This document shows positions 18,955-49,280 of a stretch of DNA of 64,000 nt, one piece after another (the stretch's first letter is position 1; each line of letters opens with the position of its first letter). The notes under the pieces are model-generated. The model made no database searches, was not told where the DNA came from, and saw nothing but the letters and a program-made list of their open reading frames with translations. This stretch comes from Methanoplanus limicola DSM 2279. GTDB taxonomy: Archaea > Halobacteriota > Methanomicrobia > Methanomicrobiales > Methanomicrobiaceae. The stretch spans positions 594,077 to 658,076 of the forward strand of contig NZ_CM001436.1 of assembly GCF_000243255.1 (NCBI RefSeq), in the 5' to 3' direction. The translations under genes were made by a program, and so were the position numbers.

Positions 18955-21900
18955 TTAAAGACCGCCTGTCTTCCCGGCAATGTAATAGGCAATCTTTGAA
19001 ACATCACCTATATCCACAAATCCATTGAAGTTGAAGTCAGCACCCGGATCTTCAGGAACTATCTTTACAAGCATATATGCCACCTTTGAAGCGTCGCCTA
19101 TATCAACCACGCCGTTGTGGTTGAAGTCACCTTTTGGATAAACAATAATATATTCAGTCTTTGTCTCCGTGTCAGCCCCTGCATCGTTTGAAACGGTCAG
19201 ATTTACAGTATAATTTCCGGCTGAGCTGTATGTGTACACCGGATTCCGGATGGTGGATAATCCTCCGTCACCAAACGACCAGTTCCATGATTCCGGACTG
19301 CCTGTAGAGAGATCACTGAAATTAACTGCCAGAGGTGATGTCCCTTTTGTCTTATCTGCTGAAAAATCTGCATCAGGGCTTATCATGCCAGATTCAGGAG
19401 CAATTTTTACTACCCAGCCATCATAGTCACCATGGTTTCCACTTACATCCCCATCATTTGATTCTGTATAGCCGGCTACTATATATCCGCCATCGTCTGT
19501 CTTCCGGATACACTTTGCATAGTCATAATCCGAACCGCCAAGACAGCGCTGCCACTCAATAAATCCAAGGAAGTCCACTTTAACAACCCAGGCGTCATAT
19601 CCGCCATGATTTCCGGTGACATCACCATCAATGGATAAAGTTTCATTAGACATGGTTTCTCCGGCTAATATATAACCACCATCAACAGACTGCTGTATAC
19701 TGTATGCACTATCAGAGGCCACCCCTCCCAGACAGCGCTGCCACTCAGAATAACCATCTGAATCCATTTTGACAGCCCAGAAGTCTAATGCACCATGCCC
19801 GAATACATCACCATCGTATGTGTAGGATTCTCCGGCGGTTATGTAGCCGCCATCGTCTGTCTGTATTATGCTGCTTGCCGATTCACCATAAGAACCGCCG
19901 ATGCATCTCTGCCACTGAAGATTTCCTGCTGAGTCCAGTTTCACTGTCCAGGCATCACATACTCCAAGGCATCCGCTTACATCACCGTCATTTGATCCTG
20001 TAAAACCGGTTATTATGTAGCAGCCATCGTCTGTCTGCGTTATGCTGTAGGCATAGTCTGCGCCTGATCCGCCAAGACAGCGCTGCCACTGCAGAATTCC
20101 TGCGGAGTCAAGTTTCACCACCCAGAAATCACCCAATCCATGATTTCCTGTGACATCGCCGTCTTCTGAGTAGGTCACTCCGGCGATGATGAACCCTCCG
20201 TCGCCTGTCCCGCAGAGGCTATATGATTCATCATAATTCCAGCCGCCAAGGCAGTGCTGCCACTGAAGATTTCCGCCGGAGTCAAGTTTCACAACCCAGA
20301 AATCGCTTACTTCCTGAAATTCACTGATATCTTCGTCATTTGATACGTGACTGTTAATCACGGTCCCTTCCGGGATTTTACCCCCGTGGTGTCCGCTGAC
20401 ATCTCCATCATCTGATGTTGTAGAACCGGTTATTATGTATCCGCCATCGCCTGTCTGCTTTATGTCATATCCCCTCTCCGCACCTGTTCCTCCAAGACAA
20501 CGCTGCCACTGAAGAGTTCCGCCGGAGTCAAGTTTCACTACCCATACATCATGTCCTCCATGATTTCCGCTTACATCGCCGTTGCTTGAATTGGTAAATC
20601 CTGTTGCGATGTAGCCCCCGTCTCCCGTCTGCTCTATGCTGTACAGATGATCAATGCCGGTACCACCAAGACAGAGCTGCCATTGCACACCGGGGAATTC
20701 CGTCTTTTTCTTAGCTGAAGGAACTTCTTCTATAAAACTGTTCAAAGTACCTCTGAGGTTGTCCTTCCTCAGTAATCTCCATGATGAATCGGTTTCACTT
20801 CCGGCAGTTGCATTTGAGATGTAAACCGGAAGCATATCAGCCGGAACTGTTGCAGCCCGGCCATAATTAAGAACCCTGCTTTCATTTCCTGTAACAGTAC
20901 AGATAAAGACTTCCGGTTTGTATGTAACATTGTGATATGTTTTAACGTCAATATCGACAGAGAAGTTGTATTCAGCTCCGGATGAGAGACTGTTCACATC
21001 AAAAACAAACTGGTCCCTCTCTTTACCGAATTCCCACGTAACAGGGGCATTGCAATTAATAGAATAAGGTATTTTTGAAGTCGTTACATTTCCGGAATCA
21101 GGGTAACTTATTCTTCCCCAGCATTCAGTAAAACTGAGATTAGCAAATACTACTGAGAATTCAAAATGCTGTACGCCTGACTCCTCAAAGAATGTCCTGT
21201 TAAATGTTCTTGATATGGTAAACTGAAGTTCCATCTCATCTGTCTTTGAAGACTGCGCAGATGTACTCAGGACCTCCCCGACCCCAATATTAAATGACTC
21301 AGGGAACTTCCAGCAAATCCTGTCGCCTGTTATTGAGGCATAATCAGGCCAGGCATATCCGGTAATATATTCCGAAAATCCAGGAATATCCATTGAGAAT
21401 TCCGGGCGTACAAGAACTCTTTCTGAATTATTGTCTTCATCTGAATCTTTTGTACTGAGGTCCCCGGCATAGAATATTTCTTCATTTACAATGGAGAGAA
21501 AATAATTATAAACCCCTGTATAACTTCCGGCAGAAATTATATCTCCTTCACTATCCACCACAAGATTCTGGTTGAGGTAAAAAGTTGCCTGACAGGGTTC
21601 AGGTGCTGTTACAATAATATAATCTGTTTTTGTCTCTGTGTCAGCCCCTGCATCGTTTGAAACGGTCAGATTTACAGTATAATTTCCGGCTGAGCTGTAT
21701 GTGTACACCGGATTCCGGATGGTGGATAATCCTCCGTCACCAAACGACCAGTTCCATGATGTTGTGTTATTTTTTGAGAGGTCAGTGAAATTAACTGTCA
21801 GGGGTGATGTCCCTGTTGTCTTATCTGCTGAAAAATCGGCATCAGGTTTTTTTACGTCAGATTCAGGAGCAGATTTAACCACCCAGAAATCACCGCTCCC

Positions 21901-23223
21901 ATGGCTACCGCTTACATCACCATCGTTTGAGAAGGTAACACCTGCTGTTATGTAAATCCCGTCACTGATCTGCACTATACTGCGTAGAGAATCTCCCTCT
22001 GATCCCCCAAGGCAGCGCTGCCACTCAGGAGTTCCGCCGGAGTCAAGTTTCACTACCCAGCCATCCCATTTGCCATGTTTTCCGCTGACATCTCCATCGT
22101 CAGAATGTGTTTCTCCGGCGATTAAGTATCCGCCACCTTCTGCCAGTTCTATACTGTAGGCAGTGTCCCCGCTGGTTCCGCCGAGGCATTGCTGCCACTG
22201 AAGGGTTCCGCCGGAGTTAAGTTTCACAACCCAGGCATCACCGCTGCCGTGGTTGCCGCTGGCATCTCCATCGTTTGAGGAGGTCCCTCCGGCGATTATG
22301 TATCCGCCATCGCCCGTTTTCTGTATGCTGTATGCTTTGTCACCACCTGCACCTCCAAGACAGTGCTGCCACTGAAGAGTTCCTCCGGAGTTAAGTTTCA
22401 CAACCCAGGCATCACCGCCGCCGTGGTTACCGCCGGCATTTCCATCATTTGAGAAAGTTTCTCCGGTGATTATGTACCCGCCATCGCCAGTCTCCCGGAC
22501 ACACCTTGCGCAGTCATAATCTGAACCGCCGAGGCATTGCTGCCACTCAAGGGTTCCGTTTCTATCCAGTTTTACTATCCAGGCATCTCCGCCGCCATGG
22601 TTACCACTGACATTGCCATCGTTTGAGTAGGTCTCTCCGGCGATTATATATCCTCCGTCACTGCTCTGCTGTATGCTGTATGCAGTATCATCACCGGAAC
22701 CGCCAAGGCACTGCTGCCACTCAATATCCCTGTCCAAATCGACTTTTACCACCCATGCATCGCCGCCGCCATGGTTACCGCCGGCATCACCGTTGTCAGA
22801 TGTGGTCCTTCCTGCAAGTGAATAACCTCCGTCATTAGTCTGTATTATGCTCGATGCAGAGTCATCACCGGTCCCGCCCAGGCATTGCTGCCACTCAAAA
22901 ATTCCGCCGGAGTCAAGTTTCACTACCCAGGCATCGGTCCATCCGCCATGGTGACCGCTGACATCTCCATCGGATGAGTAGGCATATCCGGCGATTATGT
23001 ATCCGCCATCGCCCGTTTTCTGTATGCTGTTTAATAATTCAGTCATTGAGCCGCCCAGACAGCGCTGCCAGTCTAAGGCAGGACCTTCAGGAACAGCGTC
23101 TGGCTGAATTGACGTGGAGTATAATTCAGCATAAGAAGAAGGAAATGCAGATTCCTGAGCAGAAGCAATACCAAAAACGGCAGATAAAGCCATAAATATG
23201 ATGAAACACACAAGTGCTTTCAT
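18955..23223 (-). CDS. Giant secreted protein: two 7-repeat propeller blocks, two PKD domains, dockerin
   Basis: 1422 residues with an N-terminal signal peptide ending GIASAQ. Residues about 50-455 hold seven repeats of about 58 residues, each WQxCLGGxxxDxAYSIxQTxDGGYIIAGxTxSNDGDVSGNHGxxDAWVVKLDSGGxLQ. A PKD domain follows (LTVNFTDLS...WNWSFGDGGLSTIRNPVYTY). About residues 545-840 are a different beta-rich domain. A second block of seven repeats (one enlarged by an insert), a second PKD and a C-terminal dockerin (DFNHNGVVDIGDASKVAYML, DFNFNGFVDIGDVSKIAYYI) complete it. Seven repeats per block suggests two seven-bladed beta propellers. It is surely extracellular and likely adhesive or structural. 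No enzymatic motif is visible. Confidence 0.85.
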   Translation of the reverse strand: MKALVCFIIFMALSAVFGIASAQESAFPSSYAELYSTSIQPDAVPEGPALDWQRCLGGSMTELLNSIQKTGDGGYIIAGYAYSSDGDVSGHHGGWTDAWVVKLDSGGIFEWQQCLGGTGDDSASSIIQTNDGGYSLAGRTTSDNGDAGGNHGGGDAWVVKVDLDRDIEWQQCLGGSGDDTAYSIQQSSDGGYIIAGETYSNDGNVSGNHGGGDAWIVKLDRNGTLEWQQCLGGSDYDCARCVRETGDGGYIITGETFSNDGNAGGNHGGGDAWVVKLNSGGTLQWQHCLGGAGGDKAYSIQKTGDGGYIIAGGTSSNDGDASGNHGSGDAWVVKLNSGGTLQWQQCLGGTSGDTAYSIELAEGGGYLIAGETHSDDGDVSGKHGKWDGWVVKLDSGGTPEWQRCLGGSEGDSLRSIVQISDGIYITAGVTFSNDGDVSGSHGSGDFWVVKSAPESDVKKPDADFSADKTTGTSPLTVNFTDLSKNNTTSWNWSFGDGGLSTIRNPVYTYSSAGNYTVNLTVSNDAGADTETKTDYIIVTAPEPCQATFYLNQNLVVDSEGDIISAGSYTGVYNYFLSIVNEEIFYAGDLSTKDSDEDNNSERVLVRPEFSMDIPGFSEYITGYAWPDYASITGDRICWKFPESFNIGVGEVLSTSAQSSKTDEMELQFTISRTFNRTFFEESGVQHFEFSVVFANLSFTECWGRISYPDSGNVTTSKIPYSINCNAPVTWEFGKERDQFVFDVNSLSSGAEYNFSVDIDVKTYHNVTYKPEVFICTVTGNESRVLNYGRAATVPADMLPVYISNATAGSETDSSWRLLRKDNLRGTLNSFIEEVPSAKKKTEFPGVQWQLCLGGTGIDHLYSIEQTGDGGYIATGFTNSSNGDVSGNHGGHDVWVVKLDSGGTLQWQRCLGGTGAERGYDIKQTGDGGYIITGSTTSDDGDVSGHHGGKIPEGTVINSHVSNDEDISEFQEVSDFWVVKLDSGGNLQWQHCLGGWNYDESYSLCGTGDGGFIIAGVTYSEDGDVTGNHGLGDFWVVKLDSAGILQWQRCLGGSGADYAYSITQTDDGCYIITGFTGSNDGDVSGCLGVCDAWTVKLDSAGNLQWQRCIGGSYGESASSIIQTDDGGYITAGESYTYDGDVFGHGALDFWAVKMDSDGYSEWQRCLGGVASDSAYSIQQSVDGGYILAGETMSNETLSIDGDVTGNHGGYDAWVVKVDFLGFIEWQRCLGGSDYDYAKCIRKTDDGGYIVAGYTESNDGDVSGNHGDYDGWVVKIAPESGMISPDADFSADKTKGTSPLAVNFSDLSTGSPESWNWSFGDGGLSTIRNPVYTYSSAGNYTVNLTVSNDAGADTETKTEYIIVYPKGDFNHNGVVDIGDASKVAYMLVKIVPEDPGADFNFNGFVDIGDVSKIAYYIAGKTGGL
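19141..19277 (-). repeat. PKD-encoding segment, near-identical to 21613-21749
   Basis: About 135 bp encoding SWNWSFGDGGLSTIRNPVYT and the following PKD strands is almost identical to 21613-21749 in the same gene, while the surrounding sequences differ. A long exact match in otherwise diverged repeats indicates recent internal duplication or gene conversion between the two PKD domains. Confidence 0.8.
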
Positions 23224-24735: not shown

Positions 24736-26457
24736 ATGAGAAATTTAAGTTCAAATATCAGTGACAAAGCTAATCTTATCTGGTCAATTGCAGACAAACT
24801 GACCGGAGCATACAAACCACACGAATACGGAGAGGTTATTCTTCCTCTGACTGTAATAAGACGTTTTGACTGCGTTCTTGCGGACACGAAGGATGCAGTT
24901 CTTGCAGAAGACGAGAAGATGAAGACTGTTGCAATGAAGGATGAATTTCTTAAGAGGAAATCCGGCTACTCATTTTATAATACAAGCAGATTTACTTTTC
25001 AGAGACTGCTTGATGATCCGGATAACATCGAGGCGAACTTTAAAAATTATCTGAACGGTTTTTCTCCGAATGTTCAGGAGATTATTGAGAAGTTTAAGTT
25101 TGACGGACACATTACAACGATGGCGAAGAAGGGCATTCTGTATAATGTCTTAAAGGAGTACACAACGCCGAAAGGAAACCTTCACCCGTCAAAAATATCC
25201 AATCTGGAGATGGGATACATCTTTGAGGAGATTATCAGGCGTTTTTCAGAGTCACACAATGAGGATGCCGGACAGCACTACACCCCGCGTGAAGTCATTG
25301 AACTGATGGTAAACATTCTGTTTATTGATGACAGTGATGTCCTGTCCGGAAATAACATCAAAAAAACACTGTATGATCCGGCATGCGGTACAGGCGGTAT
25401 GCTTTCAGTCGCTTCCGAATATCTGCACAGGATGAATTCCGGGGCAGAACTTATCGGGTTTGGTCAGGAGCTTAATGATCATACATTTGCTATCTGCAAG
25501 GCTGATATTCTGATTAAGGGCGGAGGTGCAGAACAGATTAAAAACGGAAATACGTTATCTGATGACCAGTGTGCAGATATGCAGTTTGACTATATCCTCT
25601 CAAATCCGCCTTTTGGCAGGGAGTGGAAGAATGAGAAGAGTGCGATTGAGAAAGAGGCAAAACAGGGCTTTGCCGGAAGGTTTGGTCCGGGAACGCCTGC
25701 AATCGGTGACAGCCAGATGCTATTTCTGTTAACGGCAATATCGAAGATGAAGGATTCAGGATCAAGGGTTGCTATTATTCATAACGGTTCTCCGCTCTTT
25801 ACCGGAGATGCGGGTTCAGGCCCGTCTGAGATAAGGAGATATATCTTAGAGCATGATCTCCTGGATGCTATAATTGCTCTTCCGAATGACATATTCTACA
25901 ATACCGGAATTGCGACCTATATCTGGGTATTATCCAACAAAAAACCGGAGAAAAGGAGAGGAAAGGTTCAGTTAATCAATGCCAATCATATGTTTGTCAA
26001 ACGCAGGAAATCACTTGGCAATAAGAGAAACGACATCTCCCCACAAGCAATTGCTGAAATCACCCGGATTTACGGTGAGTTTAAGGAGAATGACATAAGC
26101 AAAATATTCAGTAACGAGGATTTTGGTTACCACAAAATAACGGTTGAACGCCCGCTTCTGGACGAGAACAATAAACCTGTTCTCTCAAAAGGAAAACCAA
26201 AACCCGACTCATCAAAGCGAGATACAGAGAACATTCCCCTGAGTGAAGACATCAACAAATACTTCGGGCGTGAAGTCCTCCCTTTCGCACCGGACGCATG
26301 GATTGACGAAAAGAAGACAAAAGTCGGCTATGAGATCTCCTTCACCCGCTATTTCTACAAGTACACCCCTCCACGACCAAGCAAGGAGATCATGGACGAA
26401 ATCTTAACCCTTGAACAGGAACTTGAAGGCAGCCTCACGGAGATTTTCCGGAAATGA
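24736..26457 (+). CDS. hsdM: Type I restriction-modification system methyltransferase subunit
   Basis: 573 residues. The N-terminal helical domain (NLIWSIADKLTGAYKPHEYGEVILPLTVIRRFDCVL) is typical of HsdM. The SAM-binding motif I is DPACGTGGMLSVA (about residue 214), and the catalytic motif IV is SNPPFG (about residue 290), of the N6-adenine type. QHYTPREVIELMV precedes the core. It methylates adenine in the sequence recognised by HsdS and forms the M2S complex. It is the first gene of the operon with the linker ORF and hsdS, and its stop overlaps the next ATG. Confidence 0.95.
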   Translation: MRNLSSNISDKANLIWSIADKLTGAYKPHEYGEVILPLTVIRRFDCVLADTKDAVLAEDEKMKTVAMKDEFLKRKSGYSFYNTSRFTFQRLLDDPDNIEANFKNYLNGFSPNVQEIIEKFKFDGHITTMAKKGILYNVLKEYTTPKGNLHPSKISNLEMGYIFEEIIRRFSESHNEDAGQHYTPREVIELMVNILFIDDSDVLSGNNIKKTLYDPACGTGGMLSVASEYLHRMNSGAELIGFGQELNDHTFAICKADILIKGGGAEQIKNGNTLSDDQCADMQFDYILSNPPFGREWKNEKSAIEKEAKQGFAGRFGPGTPAIGDSQMLFLLTAISKMKDSGSRVAIIHNGSPLFTGDAGSGPSEIRRYILEHDLLDAIIALPNDIFYNTGIATYIWVLSNKKPEKRRGKVQLINANHMFVKRRKSLGNKRNDISPQAIAEITRIYGEFKENDISKIFSNEDFGYHKITVERPLLDENNKPVLSKGKPKPDSSKRDTENIPLSEDINKYFGREVLPFAPDAWIDEKKTKVGYEISFTRYFYKYTPPRPSKEIMDEILTLEQELEGSLTEIFRK

Positions 26458-26858
26458 CACCTGAAGATATTCCAGACTCCGATTCTGGTTATGATTCATA
26501 TTCCGGTTATGATTCTGATTACAATTCTGAATCACTTTCTGCCCCTCATTTCCTCCCATCAGACGACATTCACCAGAATGTCCGCAGGAATGTCATTTCG
26601 GCATATAAACAAATATCCACAATAATTTCAATTCGGAACGCACTGCGTTCCAAATTAGATCACTCTTATATAGTACTTTCAATTCGAGACGCACTGCGTC
26701 TCGAATTCAAAACACCCAATTTCCGGCAGCCAATACAGATTCCAGAGACAGAGACAAAGACAAAGACAAAAACAAAAACAAAAACAGACGAATCACATCC
26801 TCACCAATATCCTTACCCTCACTCACATCTTCATCAAAAGATCTCTGGTGGTATCTAA
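26454..26858 (+). CDS. Low-complexity linker ORF between hsdM and hsdS
   Basis: 134 residues; the ATG overlaps the hsdM stop (ATGA) and its TAA overlaps the hsdS ATG, so the reading frame exactly bridges the two genes. The product is low-complexity: a Ser/Asp/Tyr-rich start (DSDSGYDSYSGYDSDYNSES), a middle with two similar stretches (ISIRNALRSK and LSIRDALRLE) encoded by two hairpins, then a run of KTKT, then His/Pro. I do not recognise a family. It may be a translated spacer that couples hsdM to hsdS, or simply an open frame over inserted repeats. Confidence 0.5.
   Translation: MTPEDIPDSDSGYDSYSGYDSDYNSESLSAPHFLPSDDIHQNVRRNVISAYKQISTIISIRNALRSKLDHSYIVLSIRDALRLEFKTPNFRQPIQIPETETKTKTKTKTKTDESHPHQYPYPHSHLHQKISGGI
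26635..26707. repeat. Two tandem covarying hairpins inside the hsdM-hsdS linker
   Basis: GGAACGCA-C-TGCGTTCC (26635-26651) and a longer palindrome, 26681-26707, with arms AATTCGAGACGCA and TGCGTCTCGAATT. Both sit in a repeated context beginning TTTCAATTCG, about 46 bp apart. Between the copies two base pairs differ on both sides of the stem, so pairing is kept. They could form strong RNA stems between hsdM and hsdS. Confidence 0.75.
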
Positions 26859-28198
26859 TGAGAACAATGAAAGATTCCGGTATTGAGTGGATAGGCAAAA
26901 TCCCGGAAGACTGGAATGTCTTTACACTGAAAAGAGTTTTCTCTGAAAGAAATGGTGGTGCTTGGGGAGAAGAAGCAAAAGGTAATGATGGTGATTTAAT
27001 TTGCATTAGAGTTGCAGATTTTAATTTTTCAAATTTGAAAATCTCTATAAAAAACGAATACACAAAAAGAAATTATCCTAAAAACATTATAGACAAGTTA
27101 CTGCTTAAACCTGGAGATATTCTAATTGAAAAATCGGGTGGTGGAGACTTAACTCCAGTAGGACGTGTTGTAATATTTCTTGAAGACTTTCCTGCAATTT
27201 ATGCAAATTTTATTGAAAAGCTCAAAGTAAATAGAGAACATTACCCAATGTATGTTGAGTACTTATTATCAACATTATATAATACAACAATATCATTAAA
27301 ATACATCAAACAAACAACCGGCATTCAAAATTTAGATATATCTGCATTTTTATCTAAAGAAAATGTGGCTCTGCCAAACATAAATGAACAAACCCGCATC
27401 GCCTCATTCCTCGACAAAAAATGTGCCGCGATTGACTCTGCAATCGAAAATCAGCGGGCATCTATTGATAAGCTGAAGGAATACCGGCAGTCGGTGATAA
27501 CTGAGGCTGTGACAAAGGGCCTGAATCCGGATGTGCCTATGAAGGATTCCGGTGTTGAATGGATTGGTGAGATTCCGGAAGGGTGGGATGTAACAAAAGT
27601 ATCAATGCTCTACAATGTAGTTTTAGGGAAGATGCTTAGCAATAATCCTTCAGATGAATCTGATACTTTGGAAAATTATCTGTGTGCGGCTAACTTAAAA
27701 TGGGACGGAATACGGGTTGATGAAGTTAAGCGAATGTGGTTTTCTAAGACTGAAAAATCTCGTTATCTATTAAATAAAGGGGATATTGTCGTTACTGAAG
27801 GTGGGGATATTGGTGTCTCATCAGAATATCTTGGAGAAGCAAGTCCTTGTTATATTCAAAATGCTGTCCATAAAGTAACTGCAAAAGACAAGAATGCAAG
27901 CAATAAATTATTTTACTATTGGATGGGTGCTGTAAAAAATTCAGGATACTTAGATTTAATCTGCAATAAGGCAACCATTGCTCATTATACAAAAGAAAAA
28001 TTATGCACAACTCCTGTTTTAGCTATTCCTATAAAAGAACAAACCGAAATCACCGGATATCTTGATGAAAAATGCACTGCTATTGATGAAGCAGTGTCCG
28101 GGAAGGAGAAACTTATTGAGAAACTTGAGGAGTATAAGAAATCGCTGATATATGAGGCAGTAACCGGAAAGATTGAAATTGCAGAGATTTCAACATAA
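26858..28198 (+). CDS. hsdS: Type I restriction-modification system specificity subunit
   Basis: 446 residues with the two-half HsdS layout. Each half starts with the same motif (MKDSGIEWIGKIPEDWNV at residue 4 and MKDSGVEWIGEIPEGWDV at about residue 228), followed by a target recognition domain of about 150 residues and a conserved helix (EQTRIASFLDKKCAAIDSAIENQRASIDKLKEYRQSVITEAVTKGL, and EQTEITGYLDEKCTAIDEAVSGKEKLIEKLEEYKKSLIYEAVTGKI). The recognition domains are AT-rich compared with the conserved parts, as often seen when they are exchanged. The DNA site is bipartite; its sequence cannot be read from here. Confidence 0.94.
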   Translation: MRTMKDSGIEWIGKIPEDWNVFTLKRVFSERNGGAWGEEAKGNDGDLICIRVADFNFSNLKISIKNEYTKRNYPKNIIDKLLLKPGDILIEKSGGGDLTPVGRVVIFLEDFPAIYANFIEKLKVNREHYPMYVEYLLSTLYNTTISLKYIKQTTGIQNLDISAFLSKENVALPNINEQTRIASFLDKKCAAIDSAIENQRASIDKLKEYRQSVITEAVTKGLNPDVPMKDSGVEWIGEIPEGWDVTKVSMLYNVVLGKMLSNNPSDESDTLENYLCAANLKWDGIRVDEVKRMWFSKTEKSRYLLNKGDIVVTEGGDIGVSSEYLGEASPCYIQNAVHKVTAKDKNASNKLFYYWMGAVKNSGYLDLICNKATIAHYTKEKLCTTPVLAIPIKEQTEITGYLDEKCTAIDEAVSGKEKLIEKLEEYKKSLIYEAVTGKIEIAEIST

Positions 28199-28306: not shown

Positions 28307-29752
28307 TCACGCCCAGATTGGTACATATTTCATATATCTTGGTGCTGTGTCGGGGTCAAAGGGTTTTATGAGGTCATTGGCAAGGGCGTCTTTAATGAGA
28401 CGGGAAACTGCGGAATTCTTTGAGTTAGAAAGACCAAAACGTTCACGCAGGGATTTATTGGTCATATAATCATTGCTGACCTGCTTTAAACATGCGTGCA
28501 TATAGCAGGCCCACAACCTCTCTTCATGAGTCATCTTATTGTAAGGGATGTGGCTGTACATCGTTACTCTGGTAAACTCGTCATACTCCTCAATCTTAGG
28601 CACCGGGAGCTGTGAGAACTCACAAAGAGAAACCACTTTGTCCCATCCGCTTCCACGCTCTTCACAAAAACCAACTCTTCGCATCAGGGAAGACATTATC
28701 TCATTGCGTGACCTTGGAGGATTGTCAATAATACGCCAGACATCAACAAGCGGTGCCCCCGGATTGGTGATCTCAATACGGCTTTCAAATATCTCAATCA
28801 TAGGGCCTGCACCGGTTATTGATAAGTCCTGATGAATAAGTGCATTTGCAATAAGTTCACGGACTGCATCCATCGGATAAGAAGAGACAGTTCTTCTCAT
28901 ACCTGACACAATAACTTCACCCATCGGCAAAAGCCCGCTTATGTATGTAATAAGACCTTCAAAGCCTGAAGCATAGCCCTTTGATTCCTCATACTCACGG
29001 ATTGCTTCAATCCGGCTGCTGCCCCTGTACTGAATAACCCGAATACTCTTTCTGAAAATCCCCGGAAAATAGGACAGTTTCCGGGCAAACATGATCGCAC
29101 CAAGATTTGTTATTGAATACAGACCGTTGTCCTCCAAAATAACAATACGCTCCTCTGCAAGATAATGAACAATCTGATCAATCTCAGTTGGAAGAGGCAT
29201 TTTGACCAGATCAAAATATGTGGTATAATCCAGACACCTGACAACATCCTCCTTCTTTAGATTCTGCTTTGCAGTCAGCAGTTCATAATCTGAGTTATTA
29301 ATCCTGTTCCAGAGCCTTGTTTCCATTGCAGGATAGGATTTTAATGGCTTTTTGTAACTGCCTACACGGATATAAGCATTATTTTTAAACGTAACCGGTC
29401 TGGATATTGCCTTTCGGATGGTAAGAAGGACAACGTTTTTGCCGTCAACATCAGCCTTCTGAAACTCAAAATCCGCGTTATCACTCAGCATATGCCGGAG
29501 CCAGTTTTCAAGCTCTTCATTGCCGACCTTATAACTCCGGTAATCAAAAGTTGTCCCCACAATCCCGTGTGTATCGTCACTGACACCCCAGATCAAATAA
29601 GCTGAGTTTTTATCATGATATGTTGCCGAATTTCCAAGTGCACTGATATATTCTCCAATATCTTCATGACTGGCATTGTTCTGCTTAAACTCAACCCATT
29701 CGGTTTCAGTTGGAAGTCCTGCAAGTTCTTTGACCAAACGACTCAGATTCAT
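28307..29752 (-). CDS. AlbA_2/Schlafen-type domain protein with HATPase-like domain
   Basis: 481 residues. The N-terminal AlbA_2 (Schlafen-like) domain reads WVEFKQNNASHEDIGEYISALGN, then AYLIWGVSDDTHGIVGTTF, which is the family signature. The centre and C-terminal parts carry AVRELIANALIHQDLSITG (a HATPase_c_4-like N-box with Asn and His) and a terminal winged helix (FGLSNSKNSAVSRLIKDALANDLI). Such proteins are often encoded within type I R-M loci. A regulatory or accessory defence role is likely, but the molecular function is not established. It is convergent with hsdS and shares the divergent, repeat-rich 1.2-kb region with hsdR. Confidence 0.85.
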   Translation of the reverse strand: MNLSRLVKELAGLPTETEWVEFKQNNASHEDIGEYISALGNSATYHDKNSAYLIWGVSDDTHGIVGTTFDYRSYKVGNEELENWLRHMLSDNADFEFQKADVDGKNVVLLTIRKAISRPVTFKNNAYIRVGSYKKPLKSYPAMETRLWNRINNSDYELLTAKQNLKKEDVVRCLDYTTYFDLVKMPLPTEIDQIVHYLAEERIVILEDNGLYSITNLGAIMFARKLSYFPGIFRKSIRVIQYRGSSRIEAIREYEESKGYASGFEGLITYISGLLPMGEVIVSGMRRTVSSYPMDAVRELIANALIHQDLSITGAGPMIEIFESRIEITNPGAPLVDVWRIIDNPPRSRNEIMSSLMRRVGFCEERGSGWDKVVSLCEFSQLPVPKIEEYDEFTRVTMYSHIPYNKMTHEERLWACYMHACLKQVSNDYMTNKSLRERFGLSNSKNSAVSRLIKDALANDLIKPFDPDTAPRYMKYVPIWA

Positions 29753-30619: not shown

Positions 30620-30995
30620 TTAAATTAAGATTAAACACAGGTTCGTACAGATGCTAATGATGGCAGAACTGTGATAAGCGCTCACTGAAGAACCGTACAA
30701 AACAACATCGTCTTTCACATATGGTCTGATATATGGACTCAGACTTCCTTAAAACATCGTCACGTATGCTGACATATGAACCGCTCATCCGTATTACCTC
30801 CAAAAATTTCATCTCCGTACCCGATACCGGCGTTAAAAACCTGAATCTGATACTGTTATCTGATATTTACTCTGTATGTCTGAGATCATAAAAAAAGAGT
30901 ACTAATGTTTCATAGGAGATATTTCGGACAAAACAGCGGAGACATCAGGAACACTGAATATATCAAAAGACAAATAAATCATATTTTAATCATTG

Positions 30996-33900
30996 ATGAA
31001 TAATAGTTCAACATACGGGGATTTTAAGCAGATGGCAGCCGGAGATTACACAGAAAAACAGTTTGAGACCGATATAGAATATTCACTATGCACAGACGGC
31101 GGTTATGTCAGGGGAAACCCGGAACAGTTCAACCGCACTCTTGCACTTGACACAGAAACCCTCCTTACATTCATAAAGACAACACAGCCAAAGGAATGGA
31201 AGAAATACACAAGTATCTACGGCAGTGAGAGTGAAAAGGCATTCCTTGAGAGATTCACAAGGGAAACTGCAAGAACAGGCATAATCCGGGTACTCAGGCA
31301 GGGAATAAACGACAGGGGATGCAGATTCAGGGTAATCTACCGGAAGCCGGAGACCGCAATCAACGAAGAGTCAAAAGAACGCTACGAACAGAATATCCTC
31401 CACTGCACAAGACAGCTCCATTACTCACCTGCAAATGAGAACAGTCTTGACATTGTGCTTTTCGTAAACGGAATTCCGGTTGTGTCAATCGAACTCAAAA
31501 ACCAGTTCACCGGCCAGAATGCTGCAAACGCAATCGGGCAGTACAGATTTGACAGAAACTCCCGCGACCCTATCTTTGAATTCAAACAGAGAATTATTGT
31601 CCACTTCGCAATCGATCTCTGCAACGTCTATATGACCACCCGCCTAAACGGGGCAAAAACAAAATTCATACCCTTCAATCAGGGATCAAACGGAGCAGGC
31701 GAGGTAGGAGGAGCGGGAAACCCTCTCACCTATGACAGATACCAGACATCATATCTCTGGGAGAAAGTCCTCACAAAAGACTGCCTCCTTGAAATCCTGC
31801 ACAAATACCTCCATATTAAAACCGAAACTGTAACCGACAGCAACGGAAAGACAGAGATAAAAGAGACCCTTATATTCCCAAGATACCATCAGCTTGACGT
31901 TGTAACAAAACTCCTGTCAGATGTAAAAGAGAATGGTGCAGGCAAAAACTACCTCATACAGCACAGTGCCGGGAGCGGAAAGTCAAACTCCATCGCATGG
32001 CTCGCACACCGGCTCTCAGGGCTGCATGACAGTTCAGACGAAAAAATCTTCAAATCGACAATAGTCGTCACCGACAGAAAAGTCCTCGACAGCCAGCTCC
32101 AGGATACAATATATCAGTTCGACCATGTCCAAGGTGTTGTTGTAAAAATAGACAAAAACTCAAAACAGCTTAGAGATGCAATCAACTCAGGTGCAGGAAT
32201 AATCATCACAACGCTTCAGAAATTTCCGGTAATCTTTAAGGAAATAAGATCAGAAAACAGAAATTTTGCGGTAATCGTGGATGAAGCACATTCGTCACAG
32301 ACCGGAGAAGCGGCAAAAAAGCTCAAAACGGCCCTTGCAGACACAGAAGAGATCCTTGAGGAGTATGCAAAAGCCGAACTCGAAGAAGAGGAGAAACGCC
32401 CGGACGAAGAAGATAAGTTGGTCGCCGAAATTGCAGCACAGGGACAGCATAAAAACCTCTCATTCTTTGCCTTCACAGCAACACCAAAAGACAAAACACT
32501 CCAGATGTTTGGAGTCAGACAGCCGGACGGCACTTACAGGGCATATCACATCTACTCAATGCGTCAGGCCATTGAAGAGGGATTCATCCTTGACGTACTG
32601 AAAAACTACATGACATACAGCATGTACTACCGGATAATCAAAAACATACCCGATGACCCGGAGCTTGACACAGCCGCAGGAATAAAGGCGATAAGACGTT
32701 ATGAAAGCCTTCACCCCCACAACCTCGCCCAAAAGACCGCCATCATGGTTGAGCACTTCAGAAACCGGACTAAAAACCAGATCGGAGGCAGGGCAAAGGC
32801 AATGGTCGTCACACCGTCACGCCTTCACGCAGTCAGATACTGCTTTGAGTTTAAGCGGTACATCAAAGACAAAGGTTACACAGACCTTGATGTTTTAGTC
32901 GCCTTCTCCGGTGAAATAACCGATGACGGGACGACATGGACCGAAGAGAAGATTAACAGAACAAAATCCGGTGAACAGATTAAGGAGAAACAGCTCCCGA
33001 AAGAGTTCCATGAAAATTTCAATATCCTCATAGTAGCTGAGAAATACCAGACCGGATTTGACGAACCTTATCTCCACACAATGTTTGTCGATAAAAAACT
33101 CAGCGGAGTAAAAGCAGTTCAGACACTCTCACGGATAAACAGAACTGCCGAAGGCAAAGAGAGCACATTTGTCCTTGACTTTGTAAACTCCGCAGAAGAT
33201 ATTCAGAAGGCATTTCAGCAGTATTACGAAGCAACCATCCTTGCCGAAGAGACAGACCCCAATGTATTATACGACCTTAAATACACCCTTGACGACTTCC
33301 GGGTTTACAGAGAGCCAGAGATAAACTCCTTTGCTGAAATCTTCTTTGCAGATAAAGAGGAAATGGGAAGACTCTCAGCAACGCTCCGGCCTGCAATGGA
33401 CAGGTTCGCTGCAAAGTCTCCGGAGGACCGTGAAACATTCAGAACAACACTCTCGCGTTTCATCCGGATATATGGGTTCATCACACAGGTATGCAGGATG
33501 TTTGACCCGGATTTGCACAAATTCAGTGCATATGCAAAATTCCTCTCAACCGTACTTCCAAAGGGAGAAAAAGTTACTGTGGACCTGGACGATAAAATTC
33601 TTCTGCAGTACTACAGGCTTGAAAAGAACTTTGCAGGGTCAATCGTCATGGACAGGCATGACGACTATTCCATCGATCCAATCAAAGGAGAGGCCGGAGC
33701 AAAAAAAGAGAAGAAAGACACGCTCACAAAACTTCTTGACCGGATAAATGAAAAGTTCGGCACAGACTTTACCGAGATGGATAAGGTTCTCTTACAGATT
33801 GAAAATGATATCCGGGCCGAAGAGAGCCTTGTCAATTTTGCACAGAACAATGATGAGCGTGTCTTCAGACCGGTCTTTGAAAAAGTGTTCAAAGATATAG

Positions 33901-34028
33901 CAATTCAGAGGTATGAGCAGAATGATGAATTTTTCATCCGCATGTTCAATGATTCTTCATTTATGCAGTACACAATGGACCTGATGCGTTCAGACATATA
34001 CAGAAAGATCAGGACCGCACAGGTGTGA
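30996..34028 (+). CDS. hsdR: Type I restriction endonuclease subunit R
   Basis: About 1010 residues from ATG 30996 (an in-frame TTG lies one codon earlier). The N-terminal nuclease domain has the PD-(D/E)xK layout: LDIVLFVNGIPVVSIELKN. Helicase motifs follow: Walker A HSAGSGKSNS (about residue 324), DEAH box VIVDEAHSSQ (about 429), FFAFTATPKD (motif III), and VAEKYQTGFDEP with QTLSRINRTAEGK (motifs V and VI). HsdR pulls in DNA and cuts away from unmethylated sites. It is separated from hsdMS by 2.8 kb containing the AlbA_2 gene and repeats, but the set M-S-R is complete. Confidence 0.96.
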   Translation: MNNSSTYGDFKQMAAGDYTEKQFETDIEYSLCTDGGYVRGNPEQFNRTLALDTETLLTFIKTTQPKEWKKYTSIYGSESEKAFLERFTRETARTGIIRVLRQGINDRGCRFRVIYRKPETAINEESKERYEQNILHCTRQLHYSPANENSLDIVLFVNGIPVVSIELKNQFTGQNAANAIGQYRFDRNSRDPIFEFKQRIIVHFAIDLCNVYMTTRLNGAKTKFIPFNQGSNGAGEVGGAGNPLTYDRYQTSYLWEKVLTKDCLLEILHKYLHIKTETVTDSNGKTEIKETLIFPRYHQLDVVTKLLSDVKENGAGKNYLIQHSAGSGKSNSIAWLAHRLSGLHDSSDEKIFKSTIVVTDRKVLDSQLQDTIYQFDHVQGVVVKIDKNSKQLRDAINSGAGIIITTLQKFPVIFKEIRSENRNFAVIVDEAHSSQTGEAAKKLKTALADTEEILEEYAKAELEEEEKRPDEEDKLVAEIAAQGQHKNLSFFAFTATPKDKTLQMFGVRQPDGTYRAYHIYSMRQAIEEGFILDVLKNYMTYSMYYRIIKNIPDDPELDTAAGIKAIRRYESLHPHNLAQKTAIMVEHFRNRTKNQIGGRAKAMVVTPSRLHAVRYCFEFKRYIKDKGYTDLDVLVAFSGEITDDGTTWTEEKINRTKSGEQIKEKQLPKEFHENFNILIVAEKYQTGFDEPYLHTMFVDKKLSGVKAVQTLSRINRTAEGKESTFVLDFVNSAEDIQKAFQQYYEATILAEETDPNVLYDLKYTLDDFRVYREPEINSFAEIFFADKEEMGRLSATLRPAMDRFAAKSPEDRETFRTTLSRFIRIYGFITQVCRMFDPDLHKFSAYAKFLSTVLPKGEKVTVDLDDKILLQYYRLEKNFAGSIVMDRHDDYSIDPIKGEAGAKKEKKDTLTKLLDRINEKFGTDFTEMDKVLLQIENDIRAEESLVNFAQNNDERVFRPVFEKVFKDIAIQRYEQNDEFFIRMFNDSSFMQYTMDLMRSDIYRKIRTAQV

Positions 34029-49093: not shown

Positions 49094-49280
49094 GGGGTCG
49101 TGGCCTAGTCCGGCATGGCGACGGGCTCCAACGGTCTTTGCGTGTGATGAACAATGGGTCTGCTGATTTGATGATGATCCGTTGGAGCGCTGATGTAATA
49201 ACCAATTGATGAGTTTCAGCGTGTGAGCATGCATATTCGGAGAGACCCGTCGATCGTGAGTTCAAATCTCACCGACCCCA
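49094..49280 (+). tRNA. tRNA-Trp (CCA) with 113-nt intron
   Basis: Exons 49094-49131 and 49245-49280. Acceptor arm GGGGTCG/CGACCCC, anticodon stem ACGGG/CCCGT, loop CTCCAA-intron-A with anticodon CCA (49128-49130), T-arm GTGAGTTCAAATCTCAC. The intron lies between positions 37 and 38. A bulge-helix-bulge is formed by CTCC (49126-49129) pairing GGAG (49239-49242) with 3-nt bulges AAC and AGA, cut after the second base in each, which gives exactly 49131/49132 and 49244/49245. CCA is not encoded. Confidence 0.95.
49132..49244 (+). ncRNA. Box C/D guide RNA in the tRNA-Trp intron
   Basis: The intron contains box C (GTGATGA, about 49143), D' (CTGA, in TCTGCTGATT), C' (TGATGAT) and D (CTGA, in GCGCTGATG). 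The guide before D is CCGTTGGAG, complementary to CTCCAACGG spanning the anticodon; the fifth base before D pairs C34. The guide before D' contains GGGTCT, complementary to AGACCC; the fifth base before D' pairs with position 39. This predicts 2'-O-methylation of C34 and C39 in the precursor, the same sites known for the homologous intron of Haloferax volcanii. Confidence 0.88.

Follow-up and report, generated by a model that had tools for sequence, protein, structure and literature searches.

A short open reading frame (ORF) lies between hsdM and hsdS at 26454-26858 of the window (the whole stretch of 64,000 nucleotides of the Methanoplanus limicola DSM 2279 genome that was analysed) and carries two in-frame palindromes whose arms differ by paired changes, raising the question of what such an ORF is and what its palindromes serve. 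The first-pass annotation had the ORF overlapping both neighbours by a few bases, and the overlap was found to be 4 bases long at the hsdM stop (26454-26457) and a single base at the hsdS start (26858). The features of the locus are as follows.

24736..26457, + strand: hsdM (HsdM_N and N6_Mtase; Pfam)
26454..26858, + strand: putative decayed YhcG (DUF1016) gene, 134 codons open (no Pfam match of its own; homology to the same-genus genome G001)
26518..26633, + strand: homology to N-terminal codons of G001 yhcG, from the 5' part of that gene (nucleotide alignment)
26630..26656, + strand: palindrome 1, half-site GGAACGCA, coding for IRNALRSKL
26661..26750, + strand: piece homologous to G001 yhcG codons ~97-126, comprising the recognition-helix end, the palindrome and the next stretch (alignment)
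26677..26711, + strand: palindrome 2, half-site GAGACGCA, coding for SIRDALRLEF
26858..28198, + strand: hsdS (two Methylase_S stretches; Pfam)
30993..34028, + strand: hsdR (Pfam)

Elsewhere in the window, the opposite strand carries a SLFN_AlbA_2/RecG-C-like gene (28307-29752, - strand) between hsdS and hsdR, a 1422-aa ORF with many DGGYIIAGxTxSNDGDVSGNHGG-type repeats (18955-23223, - strand) is likely to encode a surface protein, and a tRNA gene match (49094-49280, + strand) is interrupted by an sR3 box C/D RNA (Rfam), like intron-borne archaeal guide RNAs.

The ORF at the hsdM-hsdS junction

The two palindromes lie 51 bases apart and have the core CGCACTGCG in common. The arms of palindrome 1 (26630-26642 and 26644-26656) pair at 12 of 13 positions, and its half-site is also present in the intact yhcG genes L025, L042 and L130; those of palindrome 2 (26677-26693 and 26695-26711) pair at 16 of 17, with CAATTCGAGACGCACTGCGTCTCGAATT common to this palindrome and the G001 yhcG gene. 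As the first-pass annotation had described, the arms covary: one palindrome has GGAAC/GTTCC where the other has GAGAC/GTCTC, so that two bases are changed on each side with pairing preserved. Searching the window for ACGCACTGCGT with at most one mismatch gave 4 matches, these being the two sites on both strands, where 0.35 were expected and none of 100 shuffles reached 4; the core is no chance motif of the window. A search for further copies in the host genome, which the annotation had proposed, revealed no scattered REP-like copies, as the only exact matches in the whole 3.2-Mb genome were the two palindromes of the ORF, and four further places with 2 mismatches were about as many as a reversed control pattern gave (3). 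The ORF had no match in Rfam, no Pfam family (DUF1016_N and YhcG_C domains were not over the cut-off) and, by tblastn, no match in plasmids.

When the ORF protein was searched against 150 genomes of the order, the best match outside its own genome was in G001 (E 2.2e-4), with weaker matches including one in G025, of the same family (E 0.03). Comparison of the hsdM-hsdS junctions of relatives, also suggested by the first-pass annotation, revealed an intact yhcG gene of ~350 codons in both of these genomes, encoding DUF1016_N and the YhcG PDDEXK nuclease domain well over the Pfam cut-offs; the intact junction protein (~350 aa) consists of a ParB-like N domain and a PDDEXK nuclease. Aligned to the G001 gene, the window ORF has the 5' part, then a deletion, then codons ~97-126, the remainder being low-complexity. 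In a survey of close hsdM relatives, those of 94% and 89% identity had an intact YhcG at the junction and three of 76% identity (G065, G082 and G030) had another gene there; the junction therefore appears to be an insertion place, and the window to hold a YhcG wreck. On this alignment evidence the window ORF is best read as an internally deleted YhcG gene that keeps its 5' end and two copies of the site. Both domains of the YhcG/DUF1016 family (PF17761 and PF06250) are present in the junction relatives and recognisable pieces in the window ORF, but the window copy is without the recognition helix and the whole nuclease domain, and would be a remnant, not a working member. Such an origin would explain the presence of a covarying palindrome between hsdM and hsdS. 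The protein would be gone with two orphan sites left behind, and the frame probably persists because overlapping codons join hsdM to hsdS. For a role of the ORF in setting the ratio of HsdM to HsdS, which the first-pass annotation had also considered, the analysis gave no evidence.

An in-frame palindrome at a fixed codon of yhcG genes

In intact yhcG genes, one palindrome was found in frame directly behind the predicted recognition helix, at a constant codon position; it codes for the stretch between helix 'NLRKMRQFY' and 'LSWTHYR'. Scanning 80 bacterial loci (genome_contigs) and the archaeal loci revealed different arms at the same codon, for example CCAATTCGTCACGCACTGCGTGACGAATTGG and AATTGTGCAGACACTGTCTGCACAATT, in a collection that covers remote subfamilies thinly, because an archaeal query was used to gather it by similarity. 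The strongest palindrome of the gene was at this site in 172 of 208 yhcG genes (ORFs with at least 200 aligned residues; 33 of 241 ORFs dropped) and elsewhere in the other 36, with only 17, 16 and 13 of 208 at the site when synonymous codons were permuted within the gene. Leaving out genes fetched via the DNA pattern gave 168 of 204. By source, the strongest palindrome was at the site in 90/109 genes from archaeal genomes, 62/74 from genome_contigs, 13/16 from plasmids, 5/7 from viral contigs and 2/2 from phage records. Among 200 genes, 34 were listed as being without a palindrome at the site, of which at least four (L230, L080, L090 and L063) have one that was displaced by the alignment. In one plasmid, pLM6 (L228), yhcG lies between pglX and pglZ of a BREX-1 system, in parallel to the order hsdM-yhcG-hsdS.

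The palindrome also exceeded what the encoded peptide demands. Synonymous recoding of 125 segments (27 of 152 domain segments were dropped because they had fewer than 20 aa or did not span the site) left 90 that beat all 100 of their recodings and 110 that were reached by at most 5. The palindrome was centred on codon position 1 in 187 of 190 cases, the arms came in 103 distinct 9-nt versions, and of 160 silent four-fold third bases in the left arm, 151 could pair with the second base of the partner codon, against an expectation of 61.7. The silent bases and the permutation controls therefore point to a constraint on DNA, and protein constraint alone was rejected on the recoding, codon permutation and silent-base controls. 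Taken from these sequences, the palindrome would belong to the YhcG family across bacteria and archaea, including plasmids and phages. We found no description of an in-gene yhcG palindrome in the literature searched, which mostly did not cover subscription journals and bioRxiv preprints; the accessible text of PMC4316617 has both DUF1016 and palindromes, without linking them.

Covariation of helix residues with the half-site

The alignment columns found to change with the half-site were 103 (0.62), 107 (0.57) and 106 (0.27). The test set 713 gene pairs that share a half-site against 3932 whose half-sites differ, the two sets being matched by nuclease-domain identity, after 20 of 187 genes had been dropped for having no more than 200 aligned residues. 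In the helix that precedes the palindrome, residues 103, 106 and 107 lie at the beginning and on the same face. Changes with the half-site were also seen in columns 119 and 123, which are encoded by the palindrome itself, and the remaining columns of good coverage reached at most 0.22. Linkage between neighbouring residues was rejected as the cause of the coupling, since columns 108-118, from the helix face to the palindrome, tracked the half-site at 0.11 at most.

Of 77 genes with Arg103, 76 had G at half-site position 7 (5/100 for other residues), and Ala103 went with C at that position in 32/32; at position 8, Glu106 went with C (17/17) and Trp106 with T (22/22), and Tyr107 went with A at position 5 (70/71). 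Arg-guanine and Glu-cytosine are classical contacts. With whole clusters left out, residue 103 predicted base 7 correctly in 149 of 173 cases, against 42 by majority, and was the best of 295 columns; residue 107 predicted base 5 in 163 of 172 (baseline 143; best of 297 columns) and base 6 with a slight gain (88 against a baseline of 81, of 160). For base 8, several clade-marking columns predicted better than 106, and columns 156, 131 and 128 also tracked bases 3-4, possibly as a clade signal. In a silent control, Ser at the second codon after the central Leu was coded TCN with Arg103 (14/14) and AGY with Ala103 (27/27), in few clusters (Arg-TCN 4, Ala-AGY 1), and the four-fold third base of the left arm was G with Arg103 (69/70) and C with Ala103 (26/28). 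That the same amino acid is seemingly coded differently according to a residue ~20 codons upstream lends support to the coupling, though not proof. From this coupling we predict, with considerable confidence, that the palindrome is read by its own YhcG protein. Against the trend, two broken yhcG copies at one locus (L097, G025:C1:2115500-2125000) pair a Thr103/Lys107 helix with GGAACGCA and are possible recombinants.

The full-length YhcG model found mainly nuclease-domain neighbours (NucS/EndoMS, Can2 and SduA), and the N domain was therefore modelled alone (pLDDT 93.6). In second-look alignment the 12 best matches were all Noc, ParB or Spo0J, with Z 7.6-9.6 over 95-103 residues, and the next row had Z 5.3; Foldseek matches were weak (E 0.45 at best), with 17 of the first 18 in the Noc/ParB/Spo0J family, these E-values and Z-scores all referring to predicted models. 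Pfam HTH_ParB matched 15 of 33 YhcG members at E <= 1 (best 1.2e-4), the score of member 1 being 17.6 bits, below the cut-off of 22.6. A search of solved structures by sequence with A2 gave no relative, and a lone ParB sequence was not matched by the A4 profile. The modelled N domain has the ParB-type HTH fold, as predicted structures go. Because the half-sites of the palindrome vary together with residues 103, 106 and 107, which are exposed in this ParB/Noc-like domain, YhcG most likely binds it as a symmetric dimer.

The likeness to ParB/Noc with parS/NBS lies in the modelled N-domain fold and in a palindrome as the site, which ParB/Noc bind and YhcG is predicted to bind. In Caulobacter ParB, according to the accessible text of Jalal 2020 (PMC7383237), R173 bonds a parS guanine, with the recognition helix inserted into the major groove of the palindrome; the corresponding feature of YhcG would be Arg103 with G7, in the recognition-helix region, a likeness that does not establish superposition of R173 on residue 103. 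YhcG differs in being fused to a PDDEXK nuclease, with no ParB N-terminal domain seen: the CTP-binding domain was not among the 4 Pfam families of member 1, nor among 25 of the 28 families listed for the 33 members, which have the nuclease domain instead. A further difference is that the predicted site, whose sequence is highly diverse, occupies a constant codon position within the gene for the protein itself. The available portion of Kosinski 2005 (PMC1189080) gives no function for YhcG and no fold for its N domain.

Natural E. coli alleles could be compared over the same stretch. The yhcG gene of strain 2FA has three tandem in-frame palindromes at the site, and the laboratory strains ER1709 and NEB Turbo, which we take to be K-12 derivatives, have the same 180-base cassette. 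A second allele, ~91% identical, has another helix and other palindromes, and 64 of the 100 nucleotide differences fall within nt 241-420, the helix-plus-palindrome cassette. The first palindrome of both alleles fits the base-7 trend (Lys103-C and Arg103-G), and the third palindrome of the first allele is off it, as the sole Lys103-G case. The tandem E. coli sites (three at L305:2501-3628 and two at L306:1501-2613) resemble the pair in the window. One yhcG allele matches 4414 of 5426 complete E. coli genomes at the DNA level. At L311:2501-2905, an E. coli yhcG is cut at nt ~406, adjoining the palindromes, with a transposase ORF following it, and the same 1-406 match recurs in other listed E. 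coli genomes.

Each site tested was private to its gene. The genes L132 and L133 have lost the palindrome from the in-gene stretch; instead, two palindromes with half-site GGCACACA lie upstream of each, and L132 has one variant in addition, all at distances of 145-289 bases from the first ATG. This is the half-site expected, because genes with the same residues (T101, R103, R106 and A107) carry GGCACACA in 5 of 5 in-gene palindromes. L101 has upstream palindromes too, and in G083 all four genome copies of GGTACGCACTGCGTACC lie within 1.7 kb around the YhcG gene. The upstream sites of L132, L133 and G083 look like operators. Intergenic palindromes AAAAAGGGTACGCAGTGCGTACCCTTTTT were seen near yhcG or other defence-type genes (L099:3077-3103, L099:4212-4238 and L100:3466-3494), and may double as terminators. 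One short contig (L139) has two DUF1016 palindrome sites with different arms, in ORF fragments at offsets 62 and 521.

In the genome of the window, another palindrome type has two copies, both lying within YhcG paralogs, and a further type has a single copy, in its own YhcG gene. None of the readable YhcG paralogs of this genome has a helix like those that match the two window sites, which therefore look orphaned.

Candidate roles of the palindrome

The palindrome is probably the DNA-binding site of YhcG (DUF1016), placed inside its own coding sequence, and autoregulation is a plausible use of it on which we are evenly divided. By binding the palindrome within its own gene, YhcG would block transcription as a roadblock and so hold down a potentially harmful nuclease. 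Gene and operator would move as one cassette into foreign operons, as in hsdM-yhcG-hsdS and pglX-yhcG-pglZ, travelling and changing specificity together because ~50 bases separate the operator from the codons for the reading helix. A joint change of specificity would spare a newcomer repression by residents, as in phage heteroimmunity. We favour, from the sequence patterns, such an intragenic operator, which would give self-contained feedback to a nuclease gene entering foreign operons, with a target in cis as its main rival. Against it, operators need not lie inside genes, and autoregulation alone would leave the constancy of the codon unexplained.

The main rival, which we judge unlikely, is that the self-site is a nuclease target where YhcG would introduce a nick or cut into its own gene, or into a copy coming in, and so drive recombination or spread of the cassette, by analogy with origin- or transfer-type proteins that act in cis. 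The PDDEXK domain, the carriage of yhcG by phages, plasmids and several operon types, the restriction of the E. coli allele difference to the cassette and the tandem sites are all consistent with it, and initiators with sites in their own gene exist (accessible text of PMC5703833). However, a lasting perfect target in its own gene would be self-destructive unless cutting were conditional, no sign of cutting at the site was seen here, and the upstream sites of L132, L133 and G083 are operator-like. According to the same partial source (PMC5703833), pT181 RepC and pSK41 Rep have binding sites within the rep coding region, the pSK41 site coding for a linker, and they are the closest functional precedent for a site inside its own coding sequence as predicted for YhcG; their sites are replication origins, whereas yhcG encodes a nuclease, is often found on chromosomes and shows no sign of having its own replicon. 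More broadly, we suggest only tentatively that YhcG, a large family present in both prokaryotic domains, is a self-addressed nuclease whose action in cis targets the gene itself or rival copies that come in, so as to spread, exclude or regulate them. If true, helix and address would be swapped as one cassette, with new specificities arising by swapping or co-mutation, in a class of self-recognising genetic element with no known counterpart among nucleases.

Control of yhcG or the downstream gene by a hairpin in the mRNA is very improbable. The RNA of the window palindrome region does fold well (z = -6.2) and the palindrome lies within transcribed coding sequence, but arm mismatches at positions 1-12 of 190 palindromes (score >=6, columns 113-126, a choice that biases paired fractions upwards and leaves this comparison unbiased) were G.T in 45 and A.C in 53 cases. 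As there was no G.U excess, the site was taken as a DNA site and a regulatory RNA hairpin was rejected; the dependence of half-site bases on recognition-helix residues and the sites outside coding sequence in L132, L133 and L099 also stand against it. Quasi-palindrome mutation (template switch) changes both arms together, and a functionless palindrome kept perfect by such repair would explain paired arm changes without selection, but we give this little credence, as it would leave unexplained the fixed codon in distant subfamilies, the link to residues 103, 106 and 107 and the sites reappearing upstream.

Hardly any weight is left for a mobile palindromic element tolerated in frame, of the REP or Rickettsia type, which the first-pass annotation had entertained and which in-frame palindromes and the tandem copies in E. 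coli yhcG and the window would suit: the window's type has two genome copies only, both in the ORF, the palindromes of the paralogs are confined to their own genes, LSWTHYR-type genes have the site in an ungapped stretch without lengthening of the protein, and no scattered copies were found in the genome or in unrelated genes. Rickettsia palindromic elements do likewise lie in frame in protein genes (accessible text of PMC4316617), but they insert into coding and intergenic regions generally, whereas the sites here are private to one gene family and lie at its fixed codon.

YhcG-like genes occur in thousands of genomes, with no function given in the literature searched. Read as a binding site for the protein that its own gene encodes, the in-gene palindrome supplies a readable residue-to-base code and points to a likely DNA target for this family and to a first function open to test. 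If true, this would be a rare case in which the specificity of a protein and its target lie within one short coding stretch, where their joint change may be tracked in natural alleles.
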